Shown one piece after another: positions 19,863 through 38,031 of a DNA stretch of 64,000 bases. This stretch comes from Sulfurirhabdus autotrophica (GTDB lineage Bacteria; Pseudomonadota; Gammaproteobacteria; Burkholderiales; SMCO01). Each line of letters opens with the position of its first letter. The first letter of the stretch is position 1. The position numbers were made by a program, and so were the translations under genes. Under the pieces are notes generated by a model, which had not been told where the DNA came from, did no database searches, and was given only the letters and a program-made list of their open reading frames with translations. The stretch lies in contig NZ_SMCO01000002.1 of the NCBI RefSeq assembly GCF_004346685.1, forward strand, positions 1-64,000, given 5' to 3'.

Positions 19863-20383
19863 TTTTGCAACTCCTTTACCATCGGCATAATCTTGTCACG
19901 CAAAATTTCAGGCGTAATCGGACCAGTTTGCTTATAGCGAATCACGCCTTGCCGATCAATTAAATAAGTTTCAGGTACGCCATAAACGCCATAATTAATG
20001 CCCACGCGGCCATCTTCGTCAAAAGCCACTGTTTCATAGGGATTGCCCATACCGCTCAGCCAGCGCATACCATCGATCCGGTTGTCTTTGTAATCCAGAC
20101 CGATAATTGGCACAACACCACTTTTTCCGAATTCAACTAATAGCGGATGTTCCTCACGACAAGCGCTACACCAGGATGCCCATACATTGAGCAGCCAGAC
20201 CTTACCCAGCATTTCCTTTTGCACGAAAATTTCGGCTGGATTTTCCAGTTTCGGCAAATTAAATTCAGGTGCTGCTTTGCCCACCAAAGGCGAAGGTACA
20301 TCACGCGGATTCAAGTTCAGGCCAATACCTAGAAATACCAGCAGAACAATAAACACGCCCAACGGTAATAAGTAACGATTCAT
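19859..20383 (-). CDS. ccmG: Thiol:disulfide interchange protein CcmG/DsbE
   Basis: A 174-residue membrane-anchored thioredoxin-fold protein (anchor at residues ~5-24). The active site is WCSAC (Cys 72 and 75) within NVWASWCSACREEHP, and the cis-Pro region reads YGVYGVPETYLID. It keeps cytochrome CXXCH cysteines reduced. The family's common active site is WCxxC, often WCPTC or WCAPC. It overlaps both neighbours by four bases. Confidence 0.94.
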   Translation of the reverse strand: MNRYLLPLGVFIVLLVFLGIGLNLNPRDVPSPLVGKAAPEFNLPKLENPAEIFVQKEMLGKVWLLNVWASWCSACREEHPLLVEFGKSGVVPIIGLDYKDNRIDGMRWLSGMGNPYETVAFDEDGRVGINYGVYGVPETYLIDRQGVIRYKQTGPITPEILRDKIMPMVKELQK

Positions 20384-22371
20384 GCCTTGGCACCTTGTAC
20401 CTGCAAGGGGGAATGCTCAGCCTGCTTTGCAATCCGTTTCTTCATACGATATCGTTTATCGCTCACTGCCAGAAAGCCACCCATTGCCATAATGATGCAA
20501 CCACCCCAAATCCAGTCCACTAGAGGTTTGTAATAAACACGTACACTCCAGGCCCCGTTCTCCACAGGCTCACCCAGCGACACATACAAATCGCCAAGAA
20601 GGGTTGGTCTGATCGCAGCTTCTGTCTGCGGCATGGTGGATGAAAAATACGTGCGTTTTTCCGGATGCAATTCAGTGACGGGCTGACCATTGCGGCTTAC
20701 CAGCACCGTACCATGCATGGCTTTGTAGTTTGGCCCTGGAATTTCTGTCACACCCTTAAACTGGAACTGGTAGTTGCTTACATGCACCACATCGTTCACT
20801 TCCATCTTTACATCTTTTTCCACCTCGAAACCTTTAACCATCGTGACGCCGGCAACAAAAATCGCAATACCAAAATGCGCCAGCTGCATACCCCACCAAC
20901 TGCGTGACTGCTTGGACAAACGCGACAATACACCACCAGTGGCTGCACTGTGTTTGACAGCATCGGCAAATCCCGCAGCTACACTGAATGCCACCCATAA
21001 AGCCAATGCAATTCCCAGCGCAATCATTGGCGTCCATTTACCCAAGGCAAATGGCACGAGCACCCCGAGCACGACGCTAGCTATCAACGGCCAACGCAAC
21101 CGGGCCAGCATTTCCTGCATATTTCCTTTTTTCCAGCGCATCAGCGGCCCTACTCCCATGAGCAATAGCGCAGGCACCAGCAACGGCACGAATACGGCTT
21201 CAAAATAAGGGGGGCCAACAGAAATCTTACCCAACCCCAACGCATCCAGAACCAAGGGGTATAGCGTACCAAGTAACACTGTTGCTGCAGCTACGCTCAG
21301 CAAAACGTTGTTACCCAGCAGCATTGACTCACGTGATGCAAGCTCAAACGCCCCTCCCAAACCGATTTTTGGCGCGCGCCAGGCAAACAGAATCAACGAG
21401 CTACCCACAACAAAAGCAAGAAACATTAGAATGAAAATGCCGCGTTTAGGGTCAGTCGCAAAAGCATGCACTGAAGTCAGCACGCCGGAACGCACCAGAA
21501 AGGTACCCAGCAGGCTCAATGAAAAAGCACTAATCGCCAGTAATATTGTCCAGCTTTTGAAGCCTCCGCGCTTTTCCGTTACCGCCAGAGAATGTATCAA
21601 TGCAGTTCCCACAAGCCATGGAATGAACGATGCATTTTCAACCGGATCCCAGAACCACCAGCCTCCCCAGCCCAGTTCGTAATAAGCCCACATACTCCCC
21701 ATGGCAATGCCAACAGTAAGGCACATCCAGGCCATTGTCGTCCATGGCCGCGACCACCGTGCCCACGCCGCATCAAGCCGCCCAGACATCAGTGCAGCAA
21801 TGGCAAAGGCAAAGGCTACCGAAAACCCCACATAACCCATATACAACATGGGTGGATGAAATACCAATCCGGGATCCTGCAATAACGGATTCAGATCGCG
21901 CCCATTAAACGGCATGGGGAAGAGGCGATCGAATGGATTGGAAGTGAATAACAGAAATGCCAGAAAACCAACACTCACCAAACCCATGACGCCAATCACC
22001 CGCGCCACTGTGTCATCCGGCAAATGCTTACTGAATATCGACACGGCAAATGTCCAGCCACCGAGTATCAGCACCCATAGTAATAGCGAGCCTTCATGTC
22101 CGCCCCACACTGCACCAAAACGATACACTGCAGGCAAATCAGAATTGGAATTCGAAGCCACATACAACACGGAAAAATCGTTGGTGAGAAAAGCATAGAC
22201 CAAACAACCGAAAGCGAATAACACCATAAAAAACTGGCCACGCGCTACAGGTCTGGCTAACGCAATCAGCGTAGCATCGCTGCGAGCCGCACCTATCAGA
22301 GGAAATATGCCCTGAATCAACGCAAGCAGGGCAGCCAGTATAAGTGCGAATTGTCCAAGTTCAGGGATCAT
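20380..22371 (-). CDS. ccmF: Haem lyase CcmF
   Basis: The 663-residue polytopic membrane protein joins haem to apocytochromes. The tryptophan-rich WWD signature is clear ([20 protein letters not shown]), with conserved His in the adjoining segment ([12 protein letters not shown]) and periplasmic His near both sides (e.g. GHEGSLLLW). About 14-15 membrane segments fit the family, and length is normal. It overlaps ccmE by four bases. Confidence 0.96.
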
Positions 22372-22811
22372 GGTTTAACTCCTTTCTGCTTTTGTGCCTG
22401 CTCGATTGCGCTTTTAGCTTCAGGCGGCATGTAGTTTTCGTCGTGTTTGGCCAACACATCTTCGGCACGGAACACCCCATCTGCTTCCAGTTTACCTTGT
22501 GCTACCACACCTTTTCCCTCACGAAAAAGGTCTGGCAATATACCTTTGAATACAACCGGCATGCTACGCGCCGTATCAGTGACAACAAAATGAACGGTCA
22601 ATCCATCCCCTTCGCGTTTCATGCTTCCAGCCTCAACAAGACCACCAATCCGAAATGCTTTATTCAGCGGCACTTCCTTGTTAAACACTTGAGTTGGCGT
22701 AAAGTAAAATGCGACGTTGCTATTGAGCGCATTCAGTATCAGTGCAGTGGCAATGCCTATCACCATCAAGCCAACCATGATATAAGCAAAGCGTTTTTGC
22801 CGAACTTTCAA
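22368..22811 (-). CDS. ccmE: Haem chaperone CcmE
   Basis: A ~147-residue membrane-anchored OB-fold protein that carries haem covalently between CcmC and CcmF. The haem-binding His is in [12 protein letters not shown] (about His 123 with Tyr 127). I place the start at TTG 22811: this gives [14 protein letters not shown], the usual CcmE N-terminus; it overlaps the ccmD stop as TTGA, and GGGAG lies at the right distance. The frame extends upstream to 22877, but that part overlaps ccmD by 70 bases and has no family counterpart. Confidence 0.92.
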
Positions 22812-22972
22812 GATTTTCTCCCATGCAACATAATCAGGCGTTTCAGTAATTCTTTGCGCCGCTGCTTCAGAAACCACACTTCAAACACCAGGCATATCAA
22901 CGTTACTCCAAAGGAGCCCCATACATAAAAAGCATAGCCACCCATATGGAAAAAGTCGAAAACCGATTTCAT
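22808..22972 (-). CDS. ccmD: Haem exporter protein CcmD, small membrane protein
   Basis: A 54-residue product fills the gap between ccmC and ccmE. It starts [20 protein letters not shown], has one membrane helix ([15 protein letters not shown]) and a basic C-terminus ([11 protein letters not shown]), which is the CcmD pattern. CcmD helps release haem-loaded CcmE from CcmC. Its ATG overlaps the ccmC stop, and its TGA overlaps the proposed TTG of ccmE. Confidence 0.92.
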
Positions 22973-23715
22973 TTTTTCATCCCCTCTATGAGCTCAGCCA
23001 CCCAAGTTGTTTTTCGTTCCCTTTCCAGTATCTCGCAGCGAACACGCGCAAGGGATACGGCAATCGAATACATCCAGCACGCCAAAGCCATCAATAACAT
23101 ACCAGTAAGCATAGTGGCTGCCATACTGGGAGATTTGGTCATACTCACCGAGGCTCCCTGATGCAGGGTATTCCACCACTTCACTGAAAAATAGATGATC
23201 GGCACATTGACTGCACCAACCAGCGCCAACACTGCACCCGCCTTGTCTGCGCGACGCGTATCGTCAATAGCTGCCTGTAACGCCATGAAACCAAGATACA
23301 AGAACAACAGAATCAATTCAGATGTCAGCCGTGCATCCCACACCCAATATGCGCCCCACATTGGCTTACCCCACAATGCGCCAGTCCACAAAGCGATAAA
23401 GGTGAACAACGCACCGGTAGGAGCCAATGCGCGCGCCATCATGTCCGACAACCGCGTGTTAAGAACCAAACCAAACCCGGCGTATGCAGCCATCAACAGA
23501 TAAATAAACATCGACATCCACGCGGCAGGCACATGGATAAAAATAATGCGATAAGCTTCACCCTGTTGTGCATCGGTAGGCGCTACAAAAAAGCCAACAT
23601 ACAACCCTGCAATGGCAAACCCCACCGCCAACAGGGAAAACCAGGGAATCATTTTGCCAGCCAGGCCGTAAAAAACCTTGGGAGCGGCGAATCTGAACAA
23701 GCTAAATTCCTTCAT
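22969..23715 (-). CDS. ccmC: Haem transporter CcmC
   Basis: A ~248-residue membrane protein with six segments. The WWD-type haem-binding domain is visible in GKPMWGAYWVWDARLTSELILL, with His residues in the flanking loops (IFIHVPAAWMSM and NTLHQGASVS). CcmC loads haem onto CcmE. ATG 23715 (MKEFSLFRFAAP) follows GGAAGC and the ccmB stop at a normal distance; an in-frame extension to 23736 would overlap ccmB. Confidence 0.94.
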   Translation of the reverse strand: MKEFSLFRFAAPKVFYGLAGKMIPWFSLLAVGFAIAGLYVGFFVAPTDAQQGEAYRIIFIHVPAAWMSMFIYLLMAAYAGFGLVLNTRLSDMMARALAPTGALFTFIALWTGALWGKPMWGAYWVWDARLTSELILLFLYLGFMALQAAIDDTRRADKAGAVLALVGAVNVPIIYFSVKWWNTLHQGASVSMTKSPSMAATMLTGMLLMALACWMYSIAVSLARVRCEILERERKTTWVAELIEGMKK

Positions 23716-23722
23716 TGCTTCC

Positions 23723-24388
23723 TTACTCCAACGCAATCCGCAAAGCTGCTGCTGTCGCTAGCGGCGCAAGCAAAAGCGACAATAAAAGCAGCGCACCCAG
23801 AATCGAAAAATGAGCTTCAGCGCTTAAGCCGCCACTCACTGCTTCCACTGCACCAGCACCAAAAACCAATACAGGAATGTACAGCGGCAACACCAGCAAC
23901 GCAAGCAATGCACCACCGCCTCGCAATCCAAGGGTCAGTGCGGCACCAATACCACCAATCAAACTCAATACCGGCGTACCCAGCAAAAGCGCAATCACCA
24001 AAACTGTCAGAGACTCTCCTGACAAACCATATTGCACGCCGATCACCGGCGCAATCAATGTCAGTGGCAACCCGGTCACAATCCAATGCGCCAGCGCCTT
24101 CCCAAGTGTCAGCAACGCTAACGGGCGAGGCGACAATACCATCTGTTCCAACGTACCGTCCGCATAATCAGCCGCAAACATTCTGCTCAATGACAACAGC
24201 GCAGCGAGCAATGCGGATACCCAGATAACTCCTGGCCCCATAGCCCGCAACAATTTCGTTTCCGGCCCGACGCCAAGTGGGAAGAGGCTAGCTGCCACTA
24301 TGAAGAAGAAAAACACTGTCAGCACGTCTGCACGTCGGCGCAGTGCCAGCTGGATATCACGCCTTATAATGCAAAAAACATCACCCAT
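23723..24388 (-). CDS. ccmB: Haem exporter permease CcmB
   Basis: A 221-residue membrane protein with about six segments, the permease of the CcmAB ABC transporter that drives release of haem-CcmE. Family features include the N-terminal IIRRDIQLALRRRADVL and ADYADGTLEQMVLSP. It shares one base with the ccmA stop and is followed closely by ccmC. Confidence 0.93.
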   Translation of the reverse strand: MGDVFCIIRRDIQLALRRRADVLTVFFFFIVAASLFPLGVGPETKLLRAMGPGVIWVSALLAALLSLSRMFAADYADGTLEQMVLSPRPLALLTLGKALAHWIVTGLPLTLIAPVIGVQYGLSGESLTVLVIALLLGTPVLSLIGGIGAALTLGLRGGGALLALLVLPLYIPVLVFGAGAVEAVSGGLSAEAHFSILGALLLLSLLLAPLATAAALRIALE

Positions 24389-24996
24389 CAGCCGACACGA
24401 ATCTCAAAATTGAAACTGATCTTAAGTGGCTGATGCGTCGTAAGCACTACTAGCCCACCCCCTGTCAGATGTTCTGACAGCATTTCCTCAACCAGTGCTA
24501 CTGCCTGCACATCCAATGCGGCAAGCGGTTCATCCAGAATCCACAAACGAGATTCAGCAAGCAGCAATCGTGCCAGTGCTATGCGACGCCGTTGTCCTTG
24601 AGACAACATTTTTGCCGGAAGTTCCTCACATCCACAAAGACCAACCCGGTTCAGCACCTCCCCAATCTTATCTTCAGGCGCAACAACGCCTGCCACAGTA
24701 GCGGCAAAGCTCAAGTTTTCCAAGGGGGACAATTCTTCTTTTACACCATTGTGATGGCCGAGGTAAGCCATGCTATGGCAATACTCACTTCGTTGATCCT
24801 GAATATTTTCGCCTTGCCAATGCACCTCACCCGTTGCAGGTTGTGCAAGACCACACAATAAACGCAGCAAGCTGGTTTTACCCGTACCGTTGGATCCACT
24901 CACCAACAGCATTTCGCCCGAGCCAAGTGCAAAGTTCAGGTTATTGAATAGCTCGCGATCGCCGCGCACACACTGAAGGGAAATCGCTTCCAGCAT
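24388..24996 (-). CDS. ccmA: Haem exporter ATPase CcmA
   Basis: A 202-residue ABC ATPase with Walker A GSNGTGKTSLL, signature LSQGQRRRIALARLL and Walker B LWILDEPLAALD. It powers the CcmB permease during haem-CcmE release. It is the first gene of the ccm operon. The 225-base gap upstream, down to the CcmI-like gene, contains a TATAAT on the minus strand (25074..25079) but no good -35 partner, so it may be read through from the cytochrome genes upstream. Confidence 0.94.
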   Translation of the reverse strand: MLEAISLQCVRGDRELFNNLNFALGSGEMLLVSGSNGTGKTSLLRLLCGLAQPATGEVHWQGENIQDQRSEYCHSMAYLGHHNGVKEELSPLENLSFAATVAGVVAPEDKIGEVLNRVGLCGCEELPAKMLSQGQRRRIALARLLLAESRLWILDEPLAALDVQAVALVEEMLSEHLTGGGLVVLTTHQPLKISFNFEIRVG

Positions 24997-25221: not shown

Positions 25222-26079
25222 TCACTTTCCCGCCAATTTGGAGTTTGCTTCCTTGATATTCATCTCAGCCAGTTTTGCAAACTGTGAATCAGCGGGGGCA
25301 GCTGCCTGCAACCGCTTCCAGAGAATCACCGCCTGCTTGTAATCAGCTCGGTCAAAAGCTTCGCTACCAGCCAGCGCAAGTGCTTTCAGATTTTTCGGAT
25401 CAGAAACCAATGCCCGTTTCACGATATCGCGCGATTCATCATCCCATTTTCGTCCATTAGCAAGCACATGAGCATCTGCCCACTCGCTTAGCATTGCAGC
25501 ATTTAAGGGGATCAGTGCAGCTGCTTTAGAATAAGCGGCTGCCGCTTCTTTACTCTGACGAAGCTCCCCATAAGTACGTGCAAGCAAAAGCCAACCTTCG
25601 CCATTATTAGGATCTTTGGCCATTTTATCTGCCAGATGCTTAACAGCCACATTAAGGTCACCACCTGAGTTAGCCTTCGGAGGAGACTGCAACTGTGTTT
25701 TAGGTGGCTGTGCATTCATCTCTGAAAAAGCCACCGGTGCAGGCGTTGTTTCTATGTCTTTCGGCTTACCAATGAAAGCGTACAATACAACTAGCGGTAC
25801 CACCACTACGGAAATAACCACAATTACTATCATTCGCAGGTTGGGCTGCTTCGCTGTTGGATCTTGCTGCGGCGAGCCAATCAACGAAGCGTGTAGCGCA
25901 GCCTGACGTCGCTCGAATTCTTCACTGCTCACTTTTCCCTCTGCTCGCTCAAGCAAAAGCACCCTTAATGCAGCACTAATCTCGCTCCCTTGGTCCCTGC
26001 TCCAGAAGGGTAAAAAACCGCCAACAGCTAGCACAGCAAAAATAAGAGCGACAACAACTATAATGGTAAAAAAAATCAC
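25222..26079 (-). CDS. Second CcmI-like TPR protein in the cytochrome cluster
   Basis: The 285-residue protein has an N-terminal membrane helix (FFTIIVVVALIFAVLAVGGFL), a short cytosolic helical loop (ALRVLLLERAEGKVSSEEFERRQAAL), a second helix (MIVIVVISVVVVPLVVLYAF), and a periplasmic TPR domain (residues ~135-280). This is the CcmI/CycH plan without the C-terminal beta domain found in the ccmI gene at 18-19 kb. It lies directly after the outer-membrane protein and giant cytochrome genes on the same strand, so it may be a dedicated apocytochrome chaperone for them. A general NrfG-like role is possible. Confidence 0.8.
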   Translation of the reverse strand: MIFFTIIVVVALIFAVLAVGGFLPFWSRDQGSEISAALRVLLLERAEGKVSSEEFERRQAALHASLIGSPQQDPTAKQPNLRMIVIVVISVVVVPLVVLYAFIGKPKDIETTPAPVAFSEMNAQPPKTQLQSPPKANSGGDLNVAVKHLADKMAKDPNNGEGWLLLARTYGELRQSKEAAAAYSKAAALIPLNAAMLSEWADAHVLANGRKWDDESRDIVKRALVSDPKNLKALALAGSEAFDRADYKQAVILWKRLQAAAPADSQFAKLAEMNIKEANSKLAGK

Positions 26080-26192: not shown

Positions 26193-28580
26193 TTAATGTA
26201 TGTCCCACCGTACACCCATATACATATAATCCCGGCTAGAGTGATCGTCGCGGGTTGGCCCAGAGGAATTAGACACCTCATGCCCCACTTCCCCTTCCAG
26301 GTAAAGGCTGGTACGCCATTGATAGGCAAGCTTCAGACTAGGTGAGATCCGGTCCTGCTTATTATCGCTATCATCCTTCTGAGTATAATAACGAAGATTA
26401 GTATCAAGTCGCCATTTTTCCCAGAATGGGAAGACATAACTTAAGCTCAACGCTTGCCCTGAATAAGTCGGTGCTTGAATCAAGCTGAGGTTTGCTACTC
26501 CAACAGCATTGGAAGAAAATAAATTGGTACCCACAGCCTGAAAAGACACTACATGGTTCATGCCTGATGCCTGCTGAGAAGCTGTGTCGATTATACAAGT
26601 CTCATTCACTGGGTCAATTACGCCAATACAGGTGCCGATCAACGCTAGCGGCAATACTGCCTTGACAGGCTCAGTGCTGGAAATGGAGGACAATCTGTAG
26701 TCCACACCAACCTGCCAGTTCTCCGAAAGAGGATGCGTTACACCTATTGCGAACATATCAGATATAGCTGTCAAGGAAGTGGCTTGTGTACGTACCTGGT
26801 CAAGGCCTTGCAACGCAATCATTTCCTGCAGTGACAATCCAGGTGCAGCGGGCAAAGCGTTGGTCAAACTATAAGATGGTGCGCGACGATGATCTAATAC
26901 AAAAAAGTAATTATCCCCTTTGTCACTCAAGTAATTTCCCTGCAACAAGGCAATATTGACACCTTTATACAAAACATCATAGTCGAGCATACCGTATGCT
27001 GTTACATGCCCATCGAAATAACGGACCTCCGTTCCAATAGCGCGACGGTTAGCAAGATCATCTAAGGTCTGCTCAATTGCGTAAACACTGACTCCAGGCA
27101 ATCCGATTTGAGGCAACAGATCGACGCTCGCGCCATAAAAGTTTTTCTTGAATGGAGAATTGAACTCTACAGCATCCCCATATACCCCATTAATCCGCCA
27201 TTCCGGATTCAGGTTAAAACCAGCCTGGAGACCATCAAAACGGTCCATGACGCCCATGCCATTCGGGTTTTGCCTCCCCACTCTGAAGTAATATCCCGCT
27301 TGACGATCAGTATGGTCAAGATAGGCTGAGTAAAGTCGTGTGTAACTGCGAGTGGGCGAAAGGTAATTATGATTGTCCGTACCACGAACGACTAAGCGTG
27401 TATCCCTGAAGGCATCCCGTCGTCTGGCATTGAGATTAATAGAGGTAATCAACGAATCCTGATCTACCAACGACAAAGTATCACGATTAAAAGTCAGCTG
27501 CCCCGGAGGCGGAGGAACTAATGTCTCGATCTGCGATTTTCCTGTGTAATAGTAAGAGGAAACACTACCGTTGAAAGTCCAGTCTGCTGGACCAGCCTCC
27601 TTTGGTAACGCCCTTGTAGTAGATCGAGCAATAGATGCACCCTTAGGCAAAGCAGCAAGGCGCTCTTTGACATGCTGGGCATTGGGGCCAGAGGGAAACA
27701 ACTTGAGATACAAATCATACTCAGCACGAGCCTTAAGAACCTCACCACTCATCTCTCTTGCCTCACCAATAAGTGCTTGAGCAGCTTCTGTTTGACTGCT
27801 GGCAGGTAGACCTAAAACCCGATATAAACGATTAACCGCTGTCGCAGAATCTTTTGCAGCAATTGCGTGTCGCGCCTCATCCATATAAGCCTTAGCGCGC
27901 GTTTCAATCTCGGTTGAGGAAGGCATAGGGGCTTGAGGAACCGGGGATACCCCACTTTCTTTGGCTCCTTGTGACATCGCATCAATCGGTTGGCTCACTG
28001 GTGGCGTTTTAATTGGTGCTGGTGCAGGTTGAATCACAGGCGCAACTTTTGACGGAACCGATAGTGGGGCCGGCATTACCGTGGAAACAGGTGGCAATTC
28101 TTTTGCAATTTTTTCTATCGGTTTTTTTACCTCTGGCACTGGAGCAGAAGATTTTTTTTCTGCCGGGAGCAAAGGCACTGTGATAGCAATACTTTGACCA
28201 TCCGAACCGGGTCGTACCGAATATTTAGTTGACTGTGAAAAAGTAACCAACATCCCATTAATCAGCTCTGGGTATAATATGGTTAAATCCGGAACTCGTT
28301 CGGTTTTAGGTGACCGAACAATTTCCTGTACCAGATCACTTTCCAATAGATTAGTATCAATCAGTCGTAAGAAAATACGCAGTTTTACCCCTTCATTTAA
28401 GGGAATGTGCCTTAAATACAGAATTTTTTCTGAAAAATGGATAACAATCTCTGCATCATGCTCACCTGGCGTGACATCGATGTGGTCAATGATCTGGGCG
28501 TTAGCTACTGAACATACGAACAATAAAAAAACTGTCAGAAAGCAGCGTAGCTGGGAAGAAAGACAATTAATAAATGACAT
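26193..28580 (-). CDS. Outer-membrane beta-barrel protein with AMIN-like and TPR regions
   Basis: The ~795-residue protein has a signal peptide (FLTVFLLFVCSVANA), an N-terminal beta domain resembling AMIN (residues ~30-150), a Pro-rich linker (~150-235), a TPR segment (~240-330) and then a long region of alternating strands ending in an aromatic-containing terminus (GVRWDIH), typical of an outer-membrane barrel. Phrases such as YYFRVGRQNPNGMGVMDRFDG resemble porin strands. I recognise no named family. Its place after the 63-haem cytochrome makes it the best candidate for the barrel of a porin-cytochrome conduit. ATG 28580 is chosen; GTG 28598 is also in frame. Confidence 0.7.
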   Translation of the reverse strand: MSFINCLSSQLRCFLTVFLLFVCSVANAQIIDHIDVTPGEHDAEIVIHFSEKILYLRHIPLNEGVKLRIFLRLIDTNLLESDLVQEIVRSPKTERVPDLTILYPELINGMLVTFSQSTKYSVRPGSDGQSIAITVPLLPAEKKSSAPVPEVKKPIEKIAKELPPVSTVMPAPLSVPSKVAPVIQPAPAPIKTPPVSQPIDAMSQGAKESGVSPVPQAPMPSSTEIETRAKAYMDEARHAIAAKDSATAVNRLYRVLGLPASSQTEAAQALIGEAREMSGEVLKARAEYDLYLKLFPSGPNAQHVKERLAALPKGASIARSTTRALPKEAGPADWTFNGSVSSYYYTGKSQIETLVPPPPGQLTFNRDTLSLVDQDSLITSINLNARRRDAFRDTRLVVRGTDNHNYLSPTRSYTRLYSAYLDHTDRQAGYYFRVGRQNPNGMGVMDRFDGLQAGFNLNPEWRINGVYGDAVEFNSPFKKNFYGASVDLLPQIGLPGVSVYAIEQTLDDLANRRAIGTEVRYFDGHVTAYGMLDYDVLYKGVNIALLQGNYLSDKGDNYFFVLDHRRAPSYSLTNALPAAPGLSLQEMIALQGLDQVRTQATSLTAISDMFAIGVTHPLSENWQVGVDYRLSSISSTEPVKAVLPLALIGTCIGVIDPVNETCIIDTASQQASGMNHVVSFQAVGTNLFSSNAVGVANLSLIQAPTYSGQALSLSYVFPFWEKWRLDTNLRYYTQKDDSDNKQDRISPSLKLAYQWRTSLYLEGEVGHEVSNSSGPTRDDHSSRDYMYMGVRWDIH

Positions 28581-28671
28581 ATTCAGCAATGTAAGCACTA
28601 AGCAAGCCGATTTTTCGGTGCATGAATTAAAATCGCAAGGCTTACTTGAGCCTTAAACAGGTTACGCAACA

Positions 28672-31600
28672 TCAGTTCCATTTAATGTAAGTACTACCCT
28701 TAGAACCCAGTGGCTTATGACAGCCACTTGAAGAGCAATCTTTACCAACCGCATTTACACCATGGTGATTCGACGTACGGGTGCTCTTTATCATGTTTCC
28801 GAGGTAAGATGCTGACGCGTCATGACAAGTTATGCACGAAGTCTGCATGCTACCGTGATTCATTCTTTCAACTGCGAATGAAGTTGTGCTGCTGTGACAC
28901 AAAGAGCATTCATTTCCTGGCATTCCGGCAGGGGTAAGGGTCGGAATATGATTTCCAGGTTTCACAGTGATATCTGTATAAGAACCACCATGGCAAGTTT
29001 GGCAAGTTCCCGTTACAACTCCAGAATGATTAAACGTCGTTGGCAACCAAGTGGAAAAACTATGGTGGCAGGATTCACATGCTCCCGTAGTAGGCAAGTG
29101 ATTAGCAGGTTTTACGTCAATATTTGGATAAGCACTGCTATGACAATTACTGCAACCGGTTGAAGCTACACCAGTATGCGAATAAGGAGTAATAAGTGGT
29201 AGCCAAGAAAGCCCGGTTCGATGACAGGCATCGCAAGACTGTGTCGTCGGGATGTGCGGGGTAGACTTACCGCTTGCATTGACGTTGTTGTGACAAGTAG
29301 CACAAGTGCCAGCCACGACGCCAACGTGAGCGAAACTGGTGGGTTTCCAGGCGGTTGTTGAATGACAAGCATCGCAGGACTGGGTTGTAGGTATATGTGT
29401 TGCATTTTTGGCCAAGGCATTAATAGCAACATAGGCTCCATTATGACAAGTTGCGCAATTACCTGTTGCAACCGGGCCTGTTGTACTGCTGTGACTCATT
29501 ACAGCCGGATTAAAAGCCGTGTAATTCAAATGGCAAGTATCGCACTGTGCTGTAGTAGGTATATGCGTGGATGGCTTACCTAGTGCATTCGTACCGTTAT
29601 GACAAGTTGAGCAACGGCCGGTGGCTGGCGGGCTTGCGGTAGCATGATTATAAGTGCCTGTCGTCCATGTAGTGGTCGAGTTATGACAGGTATCGCACTG
29701 CGCTGTAGTCAAAATATGAGTTGGGGTTTTTGTCTGCGCATTTTGAGCAACATAGGCACCGCTGTGACAAGTGGAGCATTGACCAGTCAACCCTGCGTGA
29801 TTCATCACAGACGGAGACCAGGCAGCATAGCCCCGAGTATGGCAGCTATCGCATTGGGATGTTGTCGGGATATGCGTAGCAGGCTTGGCTAATGCGTTAA
29901 CCGGAATATAGCTGCCATTGTGACAAGTCGTGCAATTAGCTACTGCGACCGGTCCCGTCGTTGCAGTGTGACTCATCGTGGCAGGACGGAAGCTATTGTA
30001 GTTATTATGACAGGTAGAACATTGTGCAGAGGTAGGAATATGGGTGGTTGGTTTACCCAGAGCAGTCGTTCCATTATGGCAAGTAGAACATTGGCCTACC
30101 GCTGAAGCATCGTGTGTATAAGTGGCAGTAGCCCAAGATGTTGTCGATTTATGGCAAGTATCGCATTGTGCAGTGGTACTGACGTGAGTTGCTGGCTTGA
30201 CCTGCGCGTTGAGCGAAAGATATGCCCCAGTGTGACAGGTTGAACAATTGCCTGCCGTCAATGGCCCAGTAGAACCCGCATGGTTCATATAGGCTGGAGC
30301 AAACGCGTTGAAATTGGTATGACACACATCACACGATGCACTTGTCGGCAAATGGGTCGACAATTTTCCGAGAGCTGTCGAACCATTGTGACAGCTTGCA
30401 CAAGTTCCGGCTATTACGCCCTGATGGGAGTAACTGGTTGGTTTCCAGGCAACCGTACCATGACAAGTATCGCAGGATTGCGTGGTCGGGATATGTGTAG
30501 CCGGCTTGATTTGTGCATTGATAGCAACATAAGCGCCGCTATGACACGTAGCGCAATTGCCAGCAGCAACTGGACCACTTGTACCACTATGATTCATAAG
30601 CCCCGGAGCAAAGGCAACAAAACCAGTATGGCAGGTATCACACTGCGCTGCCGTAGGAATGTGGTTGGTTGGCTTACCAAGGGCATTAGTGCCATTATGG
30701 CAAGTGGAACAGCGACCAGTAACAGGCGGGGATGCAACTGAATGGTTAAAGGTAGAAGTTGCCCAAGTGGTCGTTGAACTGTGACAAGTATCGCACTGTG
30801 CCGTGGTGGATATATGAGTCGGCGACTTCATCTGGGCGTTTTGAGCAAGATAGGTACCGCTGTGACAAGTAGAACAATTCCCCGCCGCAACCGGTGAGTT
30901 TGTGCTGGCATGACTCATAACGCCAGGAGCGAAAGCGGTGAAACCGTTCACGTGGCAAACGTCGCACTGAGCGCCAGTCGGGATGTGAATAGCCGGCTTA
31001 CTCAGTGCATTGACTGTAGTATAAGACCCGCTGTGACAGGTAGAGCATTGACCAGTTAATCCAGCATGATTCATCCTCGCTGGTTTAAATGCAGTGTAAT
31101 TAGTATGGCAGGCATCACACTGCACGTTAGTAGGGATATGCGTTACCGGCTTGCCTATAACTGTAGCGCCGTTATGACATGACGAACAGTTACCGGTTGC
31201 GGTGGCGTCGTGCGTATAAGAAGCGCCAGCCCAGGTGATCGTTGACTTATGGCATACATCGCATTGGGCAGATGTGATCAGATGCGTAGGTGTTTTGGTC
31301 AGCGCATTGGAGGCAAGAAAAGTGCCATTATGACACGTTGAGCAGTTTCCAGTAGAAACCGGCCCGGTAGTATTGCCATGGCTCATGGCTGCTGGAGCGA
31401 AGGCGGTTGTATTAGTATGACAAGTGTCGCACTGAGCAGTGGTCGGAATGTGATTTGTTGGCTTACCCAAAGCAGAAGTACCATTGTGGCAAGTAGCGCA
31501 ACGACCTGCCACTGGGGGCGAAGCTGCGCCATGGTTAAAGGTGCCGGTCGCCCAACTTACGGTTGAATTGTGACAGGTATCACACTGAGCTGTGGTCGCT

Positions 31601-33735
31601 ATATGAGTTGGCGTCTTCATCTGCGCATTTTGCGCAACGAAAGCACCACTATGGCAGTTCGAACATGAACCCTGAAGGCCTGTATGATTCATCACAGATG
31701 GCATCCAGGCTACAAAACCAGCCGTATGACAGGTATCGCACTGGGAAATAGTCGGAATATGGTTAACCGGTCTGCCCAATGCATTTGCAAATACGAAACT
31801 GCCACTATGACAAGAAGCACACTGGCCTGACGTTCCGGTATGACTCATCCGGGCTGGTCTGAAAGACGAGAAGTTAGTATGACAGGTATCGCACTGTACG
31901 CTTGTTGGTATGTGGTTAGTTGGTTTACCTAGCGCTGTTGTGCCATTATGACATGTAGAGCATTGACCGTTAGCGCTGGCATCATGCGCATAAACTGCTG
32001 TTGCCCATGAAATTGTAGATGAGTGGCAGCTATCGCACTGCGCAGTTGTACTGATATGCGTAACAGGCTTCATCTGGGCATTCTGAGCGAGGTAAGCTCC
32101 ACTGTGGCAAGCAGAACACAATCCGTTCAACCCGCTATGGTTCATCGTGGCGGGGCTCCAGTTAACAAAACCACTAATGTGACAGGTATCGCATTGGGCA
32201 ATGCTTGGAATGTGGTTGATTGGCCGTGTTAGCGCATTCGCGAAAAGATAGGAGCCATTGTGGCAAGTAGAACACTGCCCACTCAAACCGCCATGGTTCA
32301 TCTGTGCCGGCTTGAAGGCAGTGAAACTAGTATGACAACTGTCACACTGCGCTCCAGTTGGAATATGTGAAACCGGCTTACCAAGCGCCGACGAGCCGTT
32401 ATGGCAGCTTGAACAACGGCCAGTTACTGCGGGACTAGCAGCAGCGTGATTAAAAACCGCCGTCGCAAAGGAAGTTGTTGAATTATGACAGGAATCGCAC
32501 TGGGCGGTAGTACTGACATGAGTTACTGGCTTGGTTTGCGCGTTCTGGGAAATAAACACACCGCTGTGGCAAGTTGCACATTTCCCTGCCATACCCGTAT
32601 GGTCCATTGTCGCAGGCGACCAGGATATGAAACCACTGACGTGACATGTATCACACTGTGCAGTTGTTGGGATGTGTATATTGGGTTTTGCTTGAGCGTT
32701 TGCGAAATTGTAAGCACCGCTGTGACAAGTTGAACATTGACCGACCGTACCAATATGATTCATGAGTGCTGGCTTGAATGCCGCGAAATTAGTATGACAA
32801 CTATCACACTGTTTTGAAGTAGGGATGTGATTAGAAGGTTTTCCCAGTGCATTGACACTATTATGACAATCCGAACAACGCCCCACTACAGACGGGGTGA
32901 TCGTTGCATGATTTGGTTTGGCAGCAGTTGCCCATGAAGTCGTAGAACTGTGGCAAGTATCGCACTGTGCAGTGGTGGGAATGTGTGTTGGTGGTTTGAC
33001 CTGGGCATTCTGCGAAAGAAACGAACCGCTGTGACAGGTAGAACAATTACCAGCCGCTGCTGGGCCTGCCATATTTGCGTGCATTCCGCTCACACCAACA
33101 GATATTGGCGCAAAGGATACACCAGCCGCATGACAAGAATCACAGGAAGCCGTAGTAGGAATATGCGTTGCCGGCTTGCCTGTAGCGCGCGTTCCATTAT
33201 GACAGGTGGCGCATGTACCAGGAGCTACAAGGGCGTGAGTATAGCCGGCAGGTAGCCAGGATGAAGTTTTATGACACGAATCGCAAGAAGAACTTGTCTG
33301 AACGTGCGTAGAAGGTTTACCAGTTGCAGTACCACCGTTATGGCAAGTATTGCACGCGCCCTGAACGATTCCTTGTGTTGTACGATGTTGAAAATTGCTG
33401 GGGGCCCAGGTTATATTACCGTGACAAGCATCACAGGCTGTGGTTGTTGGCACGTGCGTTGCTGTTTTACCGGGTGATCGCCCACCGGGTCGGTGGCATG
33501 TTGCACAATCCCGAGGAGTGCCGCGAAACTGCCCCTGAATGTGGCAGGATTCACAAGTTTCTTTGGCATGGGCGCCATCCAGAAAAAAACCTGTGGTGTT
33601 ATGATCGAAAGACAAGCCTCCAGAAACAGAGGTTGCAGCTGAGGTTACACCAGAAAAAAATGCGGCAAACACAAAAAAGACCGTTAAGGTCAATTGTCGT
33701 ATCAGGCGATCAATAAGCTTTTTCCGAGAAATCAT
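28672..33735 (-). CDS. Giant multihaem c-type cytochrome (62 CXXCH + 1 CX4CH)
   Basis: The 1687-residue protein has a signal peptide (LTVFFVFAAFFSGVTSA) and then little except haem-binding motifs. By hand count there are 62 CXXCH motifs and one CX4CH (CSSSGCH) near the C-terminus, one haem per ~27 residues. Most are CDTCH, CDSCH, CSTCH or CATCH. Non-motif His residues (in THIPTT, NHIPT, MNH) occur about once per haem, suggesting bis-His ligation throughout. From haem 8 to haem 53 the chain is built of repeated six-haem and four-haem modules. No lipobox, membrane anchor or known catalytic domain is seen. It is probably periplasmic or extracellular and could act as a molecular wire or haem capacitor. 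Upstream is the 24-haem cytochrome; downstream is the barrel protein. Confidence 0.93.
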   Translation of the reverse strand: MISRKKLIDRLIRQLTLTVFFVFAAFFSGVTSAATSVSGGLSFDHNTTGFFLDGAHAKETCESCHIQGQFRGTPRDCATCHRPGGRSPGKTATHVPTTTACDACHGNITWAPSNFQHRTTQGIVQGACNTCHNGGTATGKPSTHVQTSSSCDSCHKTSSWLPAGYTHALVAPGTCATCHNGTRATGKPATHIPTTASCDSCHAAGVSFAPISVGVSGMHANMAGPAAAGNCSTCHSGSFLSQNAQVKPPTHIPTTAQCDTCHSSTTSWATAAKPNHATITPSVVGRCSDCHNSVNALGKPSNHIPTSKQCDSCHTNFAAFKPALMNHIGTVGQCSTCHSGAYNFANAQAKPNIHIPTTAQCDTCHVSGFISWSPATMDHTGMAGKCATCHSGVFISQNAQTKPVTHVSTTAQCDSCHNSTTSFATAVFNHAAASPAVTGRCSSCHNGSSALGKPVSHIPTGAQCDSCHTSFTAFKPAQMNHGGLSGQCSTCHNGSYLFANALTRPINHIPSIAQCDTCHISGFVNWSPATMNHSGLNGLCSACHSGAYLAQNAQMKPVTHISTTAQCDSCHSSTISWATAVYAHDASANGQCSTCHNGTTALGKPTNHIPTSVQCDTCHTNFSSFRPARMSHTGTSGQCASCHSGSFVFANALGRPVNHIPTISQCDTCHTAGFVAWMPSVMNHTGLQGSCSNCHSGAFVAQNAQMKTPTHIATTAQCDTCHNSTVSWATGTFNHGAASPPVAGRCATCHNGTSALGKPTNHIPTTAQCDTCHTNTTAFAPAAMSHGNTTGPVSTGNCSTCHNGTFLASNALTKTPTHLITSAQCDVCHKSTITWAGASYTHDATATGNCSSCHNGATVIGKPVTHIPTNVQCDACHTNYTAFKPARMNHAGLTGQCSTCHSGSYTTVNALSKPAIHIPTGAQCDVCHVNGFTAFAPGVMSHASTNSPVAAGNCSTCHSGTYLAQNAQMKSPTHISTTAQCDTCHSSTTTWATSTFNHSVASPPVTGRCSTCHNGTNALGKPTNHIPTAAQCDTCHTGFVAFAPGLMNHSGTSGPVAAGNCATCHSGAYVAINAQIKPATHIPTTQSCDTCHGTVAWKPTSYSHQGVIAGTCASCHNGSTALGKLSTHLPTSASCDVCHTNFNAFAPAYMNHAGSTGPLTAGNCSTCHTGAYLSLNAQVKPATHVSTTAQCDTCHKSTTSWATATYTHDASAVGQCSTCHNGTTALGKPTTHIPTSAQCSTCHNNYNSFRPATMSHTATTGPVAVANCTTCHNGSYIPVNALAKPATHIPTTSQCDSCHTRGYAAWSPSVMNHAGLTGQCSTCHSGAYVAQNAQTKTPTHILTTAQCDTCHNSTTTWTTGTYNHATASPPATGRCSTCHNGTNALGKPSTHIPTTAQCDTCHLNYTAFNPAVMSHSSTTGPVATGNCATCHNGAYVAINALAKNATHIPTTQSCDACHSTTAWKPTSFAHVGVVAGTCATCHNNVNASGKSTPHIPTTQSCDACHRTGLSWLPLITPYSHTGVASTGCSNCHSSAYPNIDVKPANHLPTTGACESCHHSFSTWLPTTFNHSGVVTGTCQTCHGGSYTDITVKPGNHIPTLTPAGMPGNECSLCHSSTTSFAVERMNHGSMQTSCITCHDASASYLGNMIKSTRTSNHHGVNAVGKDCSSSGCHKPLGSKGSTYIKWN
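29458..33045 (-). repeat. Tandem six-haem and four-haem coding modules
   Basis: Haems 8-53 follow a regular order: S (C.TCHSG...NAQ.KP.THI), D (CD.CH.ST.SWA), N (CSTCHNG..ALGKP..HIPT), D (CD.CHTNF.AF.PA.MNH), sometimes extended by S' (CSTCHSGS...NAL) and D (CD.CH..GF..W.P..MNH). Six-haem modules are ~155 residues (~465 bases). The order is 6,6,6,4,6,4,4,6,4 haems. DNA-level similarity among modules should be high, favouring expansion or contraction. Confidence 0.8.
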
Positions 33736-33905: not shown

Positions 33906-35726
33906 CTATCTACGTACTTTTTTCCAGCTGCTTGCAACATGACAACGCTCACATTGACCGCTGAAGCCGCCATTGTGCACATCGTCCTTCAAGTGACAAC
34001 TGACACATGCTCTGCCAGGTTTGCTCTGACTACCGGCTGTTTCCTTATGACAGTCATAACAGGCCACTTTTATGTGCGCCCCATCCAGTGCAAAGCGAGT
34101 AGTACCATGGTCAAAGTCCCATGATTGCCATGTACCAGTGTAGTGACAAGACTCACACTTGGTGCCGAACCGCCGCTTGTGCTTGTCATCTTTTTCATGG
34201 CATGCAATACAGGTGGAAGGCGCATCTTTGAATGCCGGAGTCAGATGACATTTCTTGCATTCCACCTTGGCGTGGCTACCTGTCAATTGAAAACGCGACT
34301 TATTATGATCAAAAGGGGCTTCTTGCCAGCGCTTCTCGTTATGGCAACTTTCGCACTTATTGCCAAGCTGCCCCTTGTGCTTGTCATCCCCGCGGTGGCA
34401 ATCAATACACTGGCTGCCTAACTTGACTTTATAGATGGGCCCTTTCTCGGGAACATGGCAGGCATCGCACTTGGTTTTTATGTGCTTGCCCTTCAGCGCG
34501 TATTTGGTTTCTCGATCGTGATTGAAGATACTGGTCTTCCAGTCCTTCGCTGTATGGCAGGTTTCACATTTTGCGCCATAGCGACCTTTGTGACCTTTGG
34601 CGTCATCGTCCTTGCGGTGACAAGCCACGCATTCCTTATCCACTTTTATTTTGGCATTCGGACCGGAAATACCGCCCTTGTGACAGGACTCACATTTAGC
34701 ATCCCGGTGCTTATCCCGCAGGGGAAAATCCGTATCATCATGATCAAAGACTGAATTTTTCCATCCGCGTTCGTTATGGCAGGTCTCGCATTTTTCACCC
34801 AAGTTACCGCGGTGCCCCTTGTCCTGATCATCTTTTTTATGGCAGGCAACACATTTTGTCGGCAACTTTTGCTGCTGATATAGCGCCCCTTTCTCAGGTA
34901 AATGACAGGACTCACATTTAGCCTGCCGATGTTTCCCCTTCAATGCATAGTGGGTATCAGCATCGTGATTAAATGTGATCTCTTTCCACCCTTTATCGTT
35001 ATGGCAGGATTCGCATTTAGTGCCATATCTACCCTTGTGGCCTTTTTCCTGATCATCCTTTTTATGGCAACCATTACAGGTAAGCGGCGTGTGCTGGAAT
35101 GTTTTATCCGCATGACACTCCTTGCACTTAACGTCCGCGTGTTTCCCGCCTAGCAGCGAGAATTTGGTTTTCTCGTGATCGAAACGAGCTTCTTTCCAGG
35201 ATTTTTCGTCGTGGCAGCTTTCGCACTTCTTGCCCAGACTGCCCTTATGCCCTTTTTCCTGGTCGTCCTGCTTGTGGCAGTCATTGCACAATTTAGGCGT
35301 GTCACGGTACTTTACTTTGGAAACATGGCAGCTGGCACACTTGGTGCGCGCATCCTTGTGCGCACCCTTGAGTTGAAAATTGGTGTAACTGTGATCAAAT
35401 TTTTCTTTATCTAAAACCGCAAGCTTTGCGTTGCGCCCCTTATGCTCGGTATGACAATTACGACAAGTGCTATCCTCAAGCTTCCCGTGCATTCTTGTCT
35501 TGCTGCTAATATCCGCTGCGATTTCCTTGTGACAATCGACGCAAAGCTTGGCTTGGGCGACTTTGTCAAAACGCTTGTGACATTTGTTGCAGTCCAGTTC
35601 GTATTTGGCGTGACCTTGAATCACTGCGCCCGGCATCAAAGCCTTTTCAAACTGAGCAGCATTCGCCACACCAGCAAAGCTGGTCAGCAATAGCAACAAG
35701 CTAGTAAAGATGAACCGCAATAACAT
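33906..35726 (-). CDS. 24-haem lysine-rich cytochrome c
   Basis: The ~606-residue protein begins with a signal peptide (LRFIFTSLLLLLTSFAGVANA) and contains 24 CXXCH motifs by hand count. Most of it is a three-haem repeat of ~70-75 residues: C..CHKKDDQEKGHKG.YGTK, CESCH..K.WKE..F.HD...YALKGKH, then C..CH. The many Lys residues make it strongly basic, unlike the giant cytochrome. It is likely a periplasmic shuttle or conduit. ATG 35726 lies inside the end of the preceding membrane gene (26-base overlap), implying coupled translation. An upstream in-frame start at 35834 would place 36 non-signal residues before the signal peptide and is rejected. Confidence 0.9.
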   Translation of the reverse strand: MLLRFIFTSLLLLLTSFAGVANAAQFEKALMPGAVIQGHAKYELDCNKCHKRFDKVAQAKLCVDCHKEIAADISSKTRMHGKLEDSTCRNCHTEHKGRNAKLAVLDKEKFDHSYTNFQLKGAHKDARTKCASCHVSKVKYRDTPKLCNDCHKQDDQEKGHKGSLGKKCESCHDEKSWKEARFDHEKTKFSLLGGKHADVKCKECHADKTFQHTPLTCNGCHKKDDQEKGHKGRYGTKCESCHNDKGWKEITFNHDADTHYALKGKHRQAKCESCHLPEKGALYQQQKLPTKCVACHKKDDQDKGHRGNLGEKCETCHNERGWKNSVFDHDDTDFPLRDKHRDAKCESCHKGGISGPNAKIKVDKECVACHRKDDDAKGHKGRYGAKCETCHTAKDWKTSIFNHDRETKYALKGKHIKTKCDACHVPEKGPIYKVKLGSQCIDCHRGDDKHKGQLGNKCESCHNEKRWQEAPFDHNKSRFQLTGSHAKVECKKCHLTPAFKDAPSTCIACHEKDDKHKRRFGTKCESCHYTGTWQSWDFDHGTTRFALDGAHIKVACYDCHKETAGSQSKPGRACVSCHLKDDVHNGGFSGQCERCHVASSWKKVRR

Positions 35727-36588
35727 GAGCGATCCCGCTGAAGACCAACAGATAGATGAAAGGTACATGAGCAAGATGCCAGAGAGAGAACAATTTTGTC
35801 CACCCCGCCATCTGGGCGAGCCGGATGATTGCAAAAAGATAGTCGTCTATTTGTCGTTTGGCCAAGTTGTAGTTAAGTAGAAGTTGCGCGTGGGGCCAGC
35901 CCTGCTTTTTTGCTTCTGCAACCAACACTTTTTTGGCATCGTGACGAATTCTACGCGAGAGCTTTTTCCCCCTATGTCGCATCGTCATGAAACGCCAGAC
36001 TCGATGTAGCGTACTGTCAATCGGAGCAAAAGCTGCCTGATGAAAATCCTTAAGCCTGTGCTCAATGTTTGGTTGTAACGAAAAAACCGATCCAATATGT
36101 TCCTGGCGCTCCTTGAATTCGGCCTCCAGTTCTGCCAGTGTAATTTCTCTTCCGTACATACCGCGGTGAATACGGCGGTAAACAAAACGTCCTACTACAC
36201 CACTCAAAGCAACCAGCAACATTGAGAGCAAGGCAATATTGGCATTCATCGAGCCGGTTTTGAAGGTGGTATGAAACAGGATAAGCACTGGGCCGCCAAT
36301 TCCCATGAACATATGGTAACGAAACCAGTTTTCCATTTGCCCAAGTCGTTCCAGCGCACGAACACGCTTACGCAAGGGATAAAGCAACAGGCTAAGCATG
36401 ATTAACCCACCTGCCAAGCCAAGGTTATAGCCTAAATCAGATCCTGCAACAAAAAGGTCGGCGAAAGCCACCAACCAGGCCAGGCCAAGAACAAGCAGTA
36501 CTAATAGCCCAACGGAAAAGCGCCACAGCCACAGCAGTGCGGTTTTTGTGATGGGTTTAATTTGTATATCTAAGGGTATGGCGTTCAT
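35701..36588 (-). CDS. Membrane protein with paired His, b-type-cytochrome-like
   Basis: A ~295-residue protein with about five membrane segments (near residues 17-43, 55-72, 92-108, 117-135 and 264-290) and a long charged loop between the fourth and fifth. His residues sit in or beside helices: H92 (RYHMFMG), H106 (LFHTTF), H271 and H274 (LWHLAHVPF), H288 and H293 near the C-terminus. That pattern suits b-haem ligation and quinone-linked electron transfer, as in cytochrome b561/ferric-reductase-like proteins, but I cannot assign a named family. It starts the cytochrome operon and overlaps the 24-haem cytochrome gene. ATG 36588 is used; an in-frame extension to 36672 runs through the promoter-like sequence. 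Confidence 0.72.
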   Translation of the reverse strand: MNAIPLDIQIKPITKTALLWLWRFSVGLLVLLVLGLAWLVAFADLFVAGSDLGYNLGLAGGLIMLSLLLYPLRKRVRALERLGQMENWFRYHMFMGIGGPVLILFHTTFKTGSMNANIALLSMLLVALSGVVGRFVYRRIHRGMYGREITLAELEAEFKERQEHIGSVFSLQPNIEHRLKDFHQAAFAPIDSTLHRVWRFMTMRHRGKKLSRRIRHDAKKVLVAEAKKQGWPHAQLLLNYNLAKRQIDDYLFAIIRLAQMAGWTKLFSLWHLAHVPFIYLLVFSGIAHVIAVHLY

Positions 36589-36622
36589 TAATTTTGAATA
36601 TAATTGGTTATGCTTTATTTTA

Positions 36623-36651
36623 TTTATATCCAGGGAATACGGTAAAGTGAA
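36623..36651 (-). promoter_or_regulatory. Candidate sigma70 promoter of the multihaem cytochrome operon
   Basis: On the minus strand TTCACT (36646..36651) and TATAAA (36623..36628) are separated by 17 bases, matching four and five of six consensus positions. The start codon lies about 35 bases downstream. It lies in the 147-base gap shared with the divergent flavoprotein gene. Confidence 0.45.
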
Positions 36652-36735
36652 CAATCCGTCACTTAAACCCATCTATACACATGGGTATTCGCGATTATAA
36701 TGTTCCGTTACCAATTTTGTCATTAATATTAATTT

Positions 36736-38031
36736 ATGTCTGATTTCGTCTTCTATCTTGTACCGGCATTGTTCGTCCTGATTGCGATTGCACTACATAT
36801 AAGATCCAATAAAAAGGCCCACAAACGCCATGCGGAAGTTCTGAAAGAGGCTGTGGAATCAGGCTTGACTGAGCCTCCTTCGTTGCACCCCGTCGTAGAC
36901 GCCACCATCTGCATAGGTTCCGGTGCTTGTGTCCGCGCATGTCCGGAAAGTGCATTGGGTGTCATCAGTGGCAAGGGCCTGCTGGTTAACCCTTCTCACT
37001 GCATCGGCCACGGCGCATGTGCACCAGCGTGCCCCGTTGGCGCAATCAAATTAGTTTTTGGTACAGCCAAACGTGGTATGGAAATCCCCCATGTCACACC
37101 GGAATTCGAAACCAATGTTCCCGGCATCTTCATTGCTGGTGAACTGGGAGGTATGGGATTAATTCGCAACGCAGTCAGGCAAGGCACTCAGGCTATCGGA
37201 ACAATCTCAAGTCGCCCAAGAGGTAAGGCTGATTTAGATGTTGTCATTGTGGGAGCCGGGCCTGCCGGAATTTCCGCCTCGCTTGCCGCCAAGCAGAGTA
37301 ATTTACATTCTGTCACTATCGAACAGGAAGATTCTCTCGGCGGCACCACTTACCATTATCCGCGTAATAAACTGGTGATGACCTCACCGATGAATTTACC
37401 CCTGATCGGCGAGATAAAAGTGCGTGAAATAAGCAAGGAGTCGCTAATGGAAATCTGGCTGGGTGTACTTAAAAAGACCAGCCTGGACATCCACTTCAGT
37501 GAACGGATGGAAGATATCAGCCAAGAAGATGGCTTATTCGTGGTTAAAACCAACAAAGGCAGCTACCGCACTGCAAATGTATTGCTCTCCATTGGACGTA
37601 GGGGCACCCCTCGCAAACTGGGCGCCAAAGGGGAAGAACACCCCAAAGTTGTTTATCGACTGATCGAAGCCGAACAGTATCGAAACCTCCACGTACTGGT
37701 AGTTGGCGGTGGAGACAGCGCACTTGAAGCGGCTTTGGATATCAGCGACCAACCTGGCACCATCGTCACAATTTCTTATCGCAGCAACGCCTTCAGCCGG
37801 GTCAAACCCAAAAACCGCGACAGGCTAGACCAAGCCATCGCCAAACATCGCGTTCAAGTTGAATTAGAAACGACAGTCAAAGAAATCACCCCAGAACTGG
37901 CAATTCTTAAAAAAGGTGACGAACTAATCGAACTACCCAACCAGGCAATCATCGTTTGCGCAGGGGGAGAATTACCTACCCCCATGCTCAAAAAAATTGG
38001 GGTTCAAGTGAATGCGCACTATGGCACTTAA
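36736..38031 (+). CDS. Membrane-anchored ferredoxin-flavoprotein oxidoreductase
   Basis: The 431-residue protein has an N-terminal membrane helix (residues ~4-22), two ferredoxin-like motifs (CIGSGACVRACP at 59-70 and CIGHGACAPACP at 89-100), and a thioredoxin-reductase-like flavin/NAD(P) module with GAGPAG (173-178) and a second dinucleotide motif VVGGGDSALEAA. Each ferredoxin motif has Ser or His where the second Cys of CxxCxxCxxxCP is expected. It probably passes electrons between NAD(P)H or flavin and the membrane or periplasmic chain. It is divergent from the cytochrome operon and followed 27 bases later by a cytochrome c gene. Confidence 0.82.
   Translation: MSDFVFYLVPALFVLIAIALHIRSNKKAHKRHAEVLKEAVESGLTEPPSLHPVVDATICIGSGACVRACPESALGVISGKGLLVNPSHCIGHGACAPACPVGAIKLVFGTAKRGMEIPHVTPEFETNVPGIFIAGELGGMGLIRNAVRQGTQAIGTISSRPRGKADLDVVIVGAGPAGISASLAAKQSNLHSVTIEQEDSLGGTTYHYPRNKLVMTSPMNLPLIGEIKVREISKESLMEIWLGVLKKTSLDIHFSERMEDISQEDGLFVVKTNKGSYRTANVLLSIGRRGTPRKLGAKGEEHPKVVYRLIEAEQYRNLHVLVVGGGDSALEAALDISDQPGTIVTISYRSNAFSRVKPKNRDRLDQAIAKHRVQVELETTVKEITPELAILKKGDELIELPNQAIIVCAGGELPTPMLKKIGVQVNAHYGT

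Follow-up and report, generated by a model that had tools for sequence, protein, structure and literature searches.

The open reading frame at positions 28672-33735 of the Sulfurirhabdus autotrophica DNA studied here (a stretch of 64,000 nucleotides, hereafter the window) encodes a single cytochrome chain with 63 haem sites, and the best overall explanation, which we hold with fair confidence, is that it is the outermost cytochrome of a PCC3 conduit. The genes around it almost certainly constitute a PCC3 cluster. What appears to be new is that, judging from gene content across genomes, PCC3 is almost always accompanied by a flavin enzyme, which we propose as a fifth component.

A 63-haem chain in a PCC3 gene cluster

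The reading frame starts with ATG on the minus strand and encodes 1687 residues. An earlier note on this DNA had counted 62 CXXCH motifs and one CX4CH, about one per 27 residues, behind a signal peptide. A motif scan of the translation agrees exactly on the count, places the CX4CH at residue 1667 and gives one motif per 26.8 residues, and the N-terminus (MISRKKLIDRLIRQLTLTVFFVFAAFFSGVTSAA) resembles, as judged by eye, a Sec signal peptide. The scan found no CXCH, CX3CH or CXXCK in the chain; its one CX15CH is coincidental and overlaps true sites. In 500 residue shuffles, CXXCH arose by chance 0.78 times on average and five times at most. All 126 Cys lie inside the 63 motifs, and a lipobox is therefore impossible, while the 128 His make bis-His ligation possible for every haem. 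Pfam matches on the chain are repeated cytochrome c7 / c3 units, and two caps can be delimited at its ends:

33493..33612, minus strand: N-terminal cap, residues 42-81, with a pair of haem sites spaced by 16 aa, kept across homologues and like the periplasmic cytochrome repeat
28672..28938, minus strand: C-terminal cap, residues 1600-1687; carries the single CX4CH

PCC3 is defined by four genes, which encode a porin and outer, periplasmic and inner-membrane proteins (He et al. 2017, PMC5566968). In the window all four, the porin gene as a probable one, lie on the minus strand between 26193 and 36672, in the published order and co-orientation:

26193..28598, minus strand: PCC3 porin-like protein, 801 aa; TPR-like stretch, probable beta barrel, weak family matches
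28672..33735, minus strand: outer (putative extracellular) PCC3 cytochrome, 1687 aa; 62 CXXCH and one CX4CH
33906..35726, minus strand: periplasmic PCC3 cytochrome, 606 aa; 24 CXXCH in triplets, likely ATG at 35726
35701..36672, minus strand: PCC3 inner-membrane protein, 323 aa; paired HX13H (two b haems predicted), SGXXG

From its likely start at 35726, the periplasmic cytochrome gene overlaps the inner-membrane gene by 26 nt. The inner-membrane protein fits the published definition of about 300 aa, SGXXG and two WX3HX13H motifs (PMC5566968), and W116, H120, H134, S157, G158, G161, W298, H302 and H316 are invariant in 16 homologues. The two cytochromes also fit, the outer one by its 63 sites and few residues per haem (26.8) and the periplasmic one by its 24 CXXCH motifs (PCC3, about 21-27 haems). 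The porin-like protein gives a sub-threshold barrel match, stands in the expected position and has homologues in 52 loci. The reading of the earlier note is supported as far as a giant multihaem cytochrome goes; the chain is of c-type and probably an electron conduit. We assign it a role as the outer conduit with good confidence, its outside location and electron transfer through the complex being predicted, as they are in published work.

The chain could instead be periplasmic, or be released by type II secretion, in either case forming no complex with the porin. The lack of a lipobox, a GspD homologue in the genome and an array whose fold could not be predicted are all compatible with this, but the constant linkage to a porin gene and to a separate 24-haem chain argues against it, and we consider it quite improbable. 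AlphaFold without haem, applied to an 18-haem stretch of the array with a 29-row alignment, returned a mean pLDDT of 36 and no usable fold, length or geometry. The model of the periplasmic chain was weak (pLDDT 69, pTM 0.34), and a PDB fold search with it gave no match. In a PDB search by sequence, the outer chain matched only 8k9e (8.5e-6), and the periplasmic profile matched no entry. We found no account in the literature of a PCC3 complex having been purified.

Genes for cytochrome c maturation adjoin the cluster:

18148..22877, minus strand: CcmE, CcmF, CcmG, CcmH and CcmI-like proteins (rest of the ccm operon), putatively named from translations and gene order
22969..24996, minus strand: ccmC, ccmB and ccmA, haem handling for cytochrome c maturation
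25222..26079, minus strand: CcmI/CcmH-like TPR protein, probable apocytochrome chaperone, between the ccm operon and the porin gene

The ccmB of this operon is the only one in the genome. Ccm or CcmI-like genes stand beside PCC3 in about one third of loci, a recurrence that suits a complex requiring 87 haems. Elsewhere in the window, a two-partner secretion pair (47734-59320) consists of a 3371-aa haemagglutinin-type exoprotein (TPS, DUF3739) and a ShlB/FhaC-type transporter; a TolQ/ExbB-like gene adjoins it (45823-47667), and a 182-aa frame at 40045-40593 has no Pfam match.

Conservation of the haem array

Since the gene is repetitive and the genome is a draft in 59 contigs, an assembly or frame artefact might be suspected, and a shorter array or a frameshift was the doubt that the earlier note itself had raised. 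Both are contradicted by the data. TRF detected no tandem array in the gene; its longest exact direct internal repeat is 20 nt and its copies are diverged, so that repeat collapse is unlikely even with short reads. Furthermore, orthologues with 63 haems and all 62 spacings identical occur in two other genomes, one in a single contig (G181) and one in two contigs (G242). We therefore reject an artefact, whose probability is negligible. The two-contig genome belongs to Sulfuricella denitrificans skB26, as shown by 100% identity between NC_022358.1 and the opening 6 kb of the plasmid contig; this organism has already been named as containing PCC3 (PMC5566968).

The outer chains of the three genomes are 83-86% identical, and comparison of the relatives with the window gives a dN of 0.07-0.09, a pS of 0.75-0.78 and a high or saturated dS. 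Identical spacings in three genomes, together with low dN against high dS, indicate strong selection on the haem register. In 29 of 29 segments tested for each relative, the same array position in the relative is closer to the window's chain (85-88%) than any other position is (67%), so array length and register have been fixed since those lineages split. Arrays in other lineages are homogenised, with internal identity of about 0.9 (L056, L091, L102 and L124), and related pairs there differ by whole modules (47 versus 45 haems in L102/L109, 53 versus 47 in L124/L125).

A variable outer chain and a near-constant periplasmic chain

A profile search with the inner-membrane protein in one-per-species genomes returned 470 relatives. 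We inspected 80 loci and 15 more from the same order, of which 90 were unique after five duplicates were dropped. The 51 complete unique pairs carry 11-91 outer haems (median 35), whereas the periplasmic count is 24 in 43 of them and 21 or 27 in the remainder; these counts are approximate, as a few outer frames in other loci may be mis-framed. Exactly 24 periplasmic haems occur in 64 loci, the window included, and the number is always a multiple of three between 18 and 27, the value 18 being found in loci that have no giant outer chain. Around the variable middle of the outer chain the ends are conserved: the start pair, 16 aa apart and resembling the periplasmic cytochrome repeat, and a CX4CH end in most of the homologues shown. 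The simplest reading of these haem counts would be a fixed distance inside, across the periplasm, and a free length outside.

Taking all outer homologues together, the range is 11 to 107 haems, with chains of 77, 91 and 107 among them. The largest (L159:5579-13945) has 2789 aa, 106 CXXCH, one CX4CH and no spare Cys, and exceeds the 85 haems given for PCC3 in 2017. The earlier note had given about 20-35 haems for the larger Geobacter and iron-oxidiser cytochromes, which is not supported as a known ceiling: the PCC3 outer cytochromes of Amphritea atlantica and Agromonas oligotrophica, with 63 and 85 haems respectively, were published in 2017 (PMC5566968), and an archaeal protein with 113 followed in 2020 (PMC7082337). 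Comparison with homologues, which that note had proposed, thus upholds giant size, and a record haem number is rejected. The 63-haem chain is a confirmed, well-conserved PCC3 member of extreme but not record size.

One possible explanation for such arrays is that they act mainly as an electron store, a capacitor of up to 63 electrons per chain, and not as a wire that extends reach. The very large number of haems per chain is in keeping with this, and a capacitor role has been suggested before (PMC10734462). Storage alone, however, does not predict 62 exactly kept spacings and leaves the conserved caps at both ends unexplained, and many small cytochromes could serve equally. Storage as the main role is thus rather unlikely, although it is possible as a second role beside conduction. 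Outer length is under tight selection in one lineage yet varies about tenfold across PCC3, against a near-constant periplasmic partner, and PCC3 outer chains thereby offer a natural length series for the question of wire versus store.

Several loci depart from the common pattern. One outer cytochrome (L063:7907-15061; 2385 aa, 59 haems) has sparser spacing and, near its C-terminus, a gap of 335 residues from one haem site to the next, and sparse arrays also occur in L104 and L134. In another locus (L058:9042-12193, on a contig shared with L098), the outer cytochrome is spread over three overlapping frames with 17, 8 and 10 haems, which would be explained by a frameshift or a sequencing error. 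Four variant clusters (L122, L143, L147 and L148) have an inner-membrane gene, an 18- or 21-haem chain and then an Fe-S/FAD gene on the same strand; three of them carry 12- and 4-haem cytochromes upstream on the opposite strand, and no giant outer chain was seen in the four. No homologue of the inner-membrane protein turned up in one scan of viral contigs.

An Fe-S/FAD oxidoreductase as a candidate fifth component

Next to the inner-membrane gene of the window, and transcribed away from it, is a gene that recurs with PCC3:

36736..38031, plus strand: membrane-anchored Fe-S/FAD pyridine-nucleotide oxidoreductase, 431 aa; proposed fifth PCC3 component

At its N-terminus the protein has a membrane helix with positive residues after it; it also has two Fe-S motifs, both CX5CX3CP, and a Pyr_redox domain. 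Both Fe-S motifs are without the usual second Cys, which is mostly Ser in the first and a nearly invariant His in the second, and [3Fe-4S] clusters or clusters with non-Cys ligands are therefore possible. In thioredoxin-reductase-like enzymes one FAD motif (ETNVPGIFIAGELGG) is C-terminal; in this protein it precedes the FAD domain, and HMMER aligns it weakly to the C-terminal part of PDB 5ygq and 7a76; by its sequence, the protein looks circularly permuted relative to thioredoxin-reductase-like flavoproteins. Directly downstream, at 38059-38901, is a gene for a 280-aa protein whose C-terminal domain is a monohaem cytochrome c.

Across 300 genomes of the order, the flavoprotein gene (E<=1e-60) is present in 16 of 16 genomes with the inner-membrane gene (E<=1e-40) and in none of the 284 others. 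Across 369 genomes of the class, it is present in 41 of the 42 genomes with the inner-membrane gene and in 2 of 327 without; one of those two exceptions is a genome 72% complete, and in the other the match is partial. Fisher values are 7e-27 for the order and 7e-51 for the class, figures that ignore kinship, though the genomes span many families. Copy numbers match as well: in the five genomes where the inner-membrane gene is present twice, so is the flavoprotein gene. In 70 of the 90 unique loci the flavoprotein gene lies in the PCC3 neighbourhood, in varying arrangements; of 18 genomes checked in which it is absent beside PCC3, 17 encode it elsewhere. From this co-occurrence, which is no proof of physical contact, we lean towards the view that the flavoprotein is a functional partner of PCC3.

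Ferric reductases and NADPH oxidases have two b haems, which receive electrons from a flavin domain on the cytosolic side. The PCC3 inner-membrane protein has the haem-ligand layout of those enzymes (PMC5566968), and since the flavoprotein is almost never missing, it is a natural candidate for the missing half. The main texts of five studies (PMC5566968, PMC10734462, PMC12442390, PMC8788666 and PMC12016527) describe PCC3 by four genes, and in the passages of those main texts that we consulted, we found no mention of the Fe-S/FAD gene. The point at which electrons enter or leave metabolism through PCC3 has been assumed since 2017 to be the quinone pool; a fifth component, if true, would give PCC3 a connection with NAD(P)H or ferredoxin and not with quinones alone, and its gene provides a genetic target.

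Proposed mechanism

We tentatively propose, as a model that may well need revision, that PCC3 is a five-part trans-envelope line from cytosolic NAD(P)H or ferredoxin, through an Fe-S/flavin enzyme, to the outside: a split NADPH-oxidase-like electron exporter or, with the flow reversed, a system that reduces NAD(P) directly. After Sec export, the Ccm system would load 63 haems onto the outer chain, which would fold into a row of two-haem modules, each haem with bis-His ligation; given the GspD homologue, type II secretion of this chain is possible. At the porin, or within it, the conserved N-terminal cap would contact the 24-haem periplasmic cytochrome; the array would reach up to about 50 nm beyond the outer membrane with the C-terminal cap at its tip. 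Electrons would hop along the haems between an extracellular partner (a mineral, humic matter or another cell) and the 24-haem chain, which would exchange them with the two b haems of the inner-membrane protein and these, in turn, with the cytosolic Fe-S/FAD protein and hence NAD(P)H or ferredoxin. The full path would run NAD(P)H/ferredoxin - FAD/Fe-S - b haems - 24 c haems - porin - 63 c haems - outside. Gene content, conservation and co-occurrence come from the sequences; we infer the contacts, the direction and the outside location.

The known filament cytochromes OmcS, OmcE and OmcZ hold 6, 4 and 8 haems per subunit. Their subunit rises are 47, 34 and 58 Å (PMC12954529), from which we compute an extended length of about 46-54 nm for 63 haems. 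The earlier note had suggested that such a chain could be a micrometre-scale wire element, which is not supported for one chain; about twenty of these chains would be needed for one micrometre.

Electron flow could also be chiefly inward: Fe(II), minerals or other cells would donate electrons to the outer cytochrome, and the inner-membrane protein would hand them on to the quinone pool, as in the model of He et al. 2017 (PMC5566968); the flavoprotein would then be an accessory. PCC3 is found in iron oxidisers and was published as such (PMC5566968, PMC10734462), and Sideroxydans CL21 cells oxidising iron had more expression of the inner-membrane gene from one of their PCC3 copies (PMC12442390). 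On the other hand, expression of both PCC3 clusters in S. lithotrophicus was lower with Fe(II) than with thiosulfate, and they were judged uninvolved under the conditions used (PMC8788666), one cluster's outer cytochrome was undetected on magnetite (PMC12016527), and a near-constant Fe-S/FAD partner would be superfluous for quinone reduction. We regard this inward, quinone-linked role as unlikely, if the most serious of the competing roles. For the five-part line proposed here, outward flow is the likelier direction, being easier on energetic grounds, and inward flow from low-potential donors is possible. The host of the window has dsrA, fitting for a sulfur oxidiser.

Comparison with known systems

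The window resembles published PCC3 in its four genes, with the porin as a probable one, and in their order, in its 27 residues per haem, in its T/S/A/G-rich repeats and in its inner-membrane motifs, and differs in the flanking operon with the genome's only ccmB, in the CcmI-like gene and in the divergent Fe-S/FAD gene. MtrCAB and MtoAB are alike in concept, a porin with inner and outer multihaem chains. Their cytochromes carry ten haems each and the outer MtrC is a lipoprotein, whereas the chain of the window has 63 haems and no free Cys for a lipid anchor. Neither the OmcA/MtrC (TIGR03507) nor the DmsE (TIGR03508) decahaem family gave a whole-model match to it, only repeated partial stretches, from which the summed TIGR03508 score of 199.5 passes the cut-off of 192.2. 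OmcS, OmcE and OmcZ of Geobacter are likewise c-haem chains for extracellular electron transfer, yet they are non-covalent polymers with 4-8 haems per subunit, in contrast to 63 in one covalent chain.

The 113-haem MHC/S-layer protein of Ca. Methanoperedens manganireducens (PMC7082337) is also a giant single-chain multihaem cytochrome, but it is an archaeal S-layer fusion with more haems and with no PCC3 cluster reported. The flavoprotein shares its Pyr_redox domain, by sequence, with trxR-type ferredoxin-NADP reductases (PDB 5ygq, 3ab1) and with YpdA (7a7b), and differs from all three in having ETNVPGIFIAGELGG ahead of the FAD domain. Ferric reductases and NADPH oxidases, finally, have the paired HX13H of the PCC3 inner-membrane protein, while the window has two separate genes and two three-Cys Fe-S motifs.
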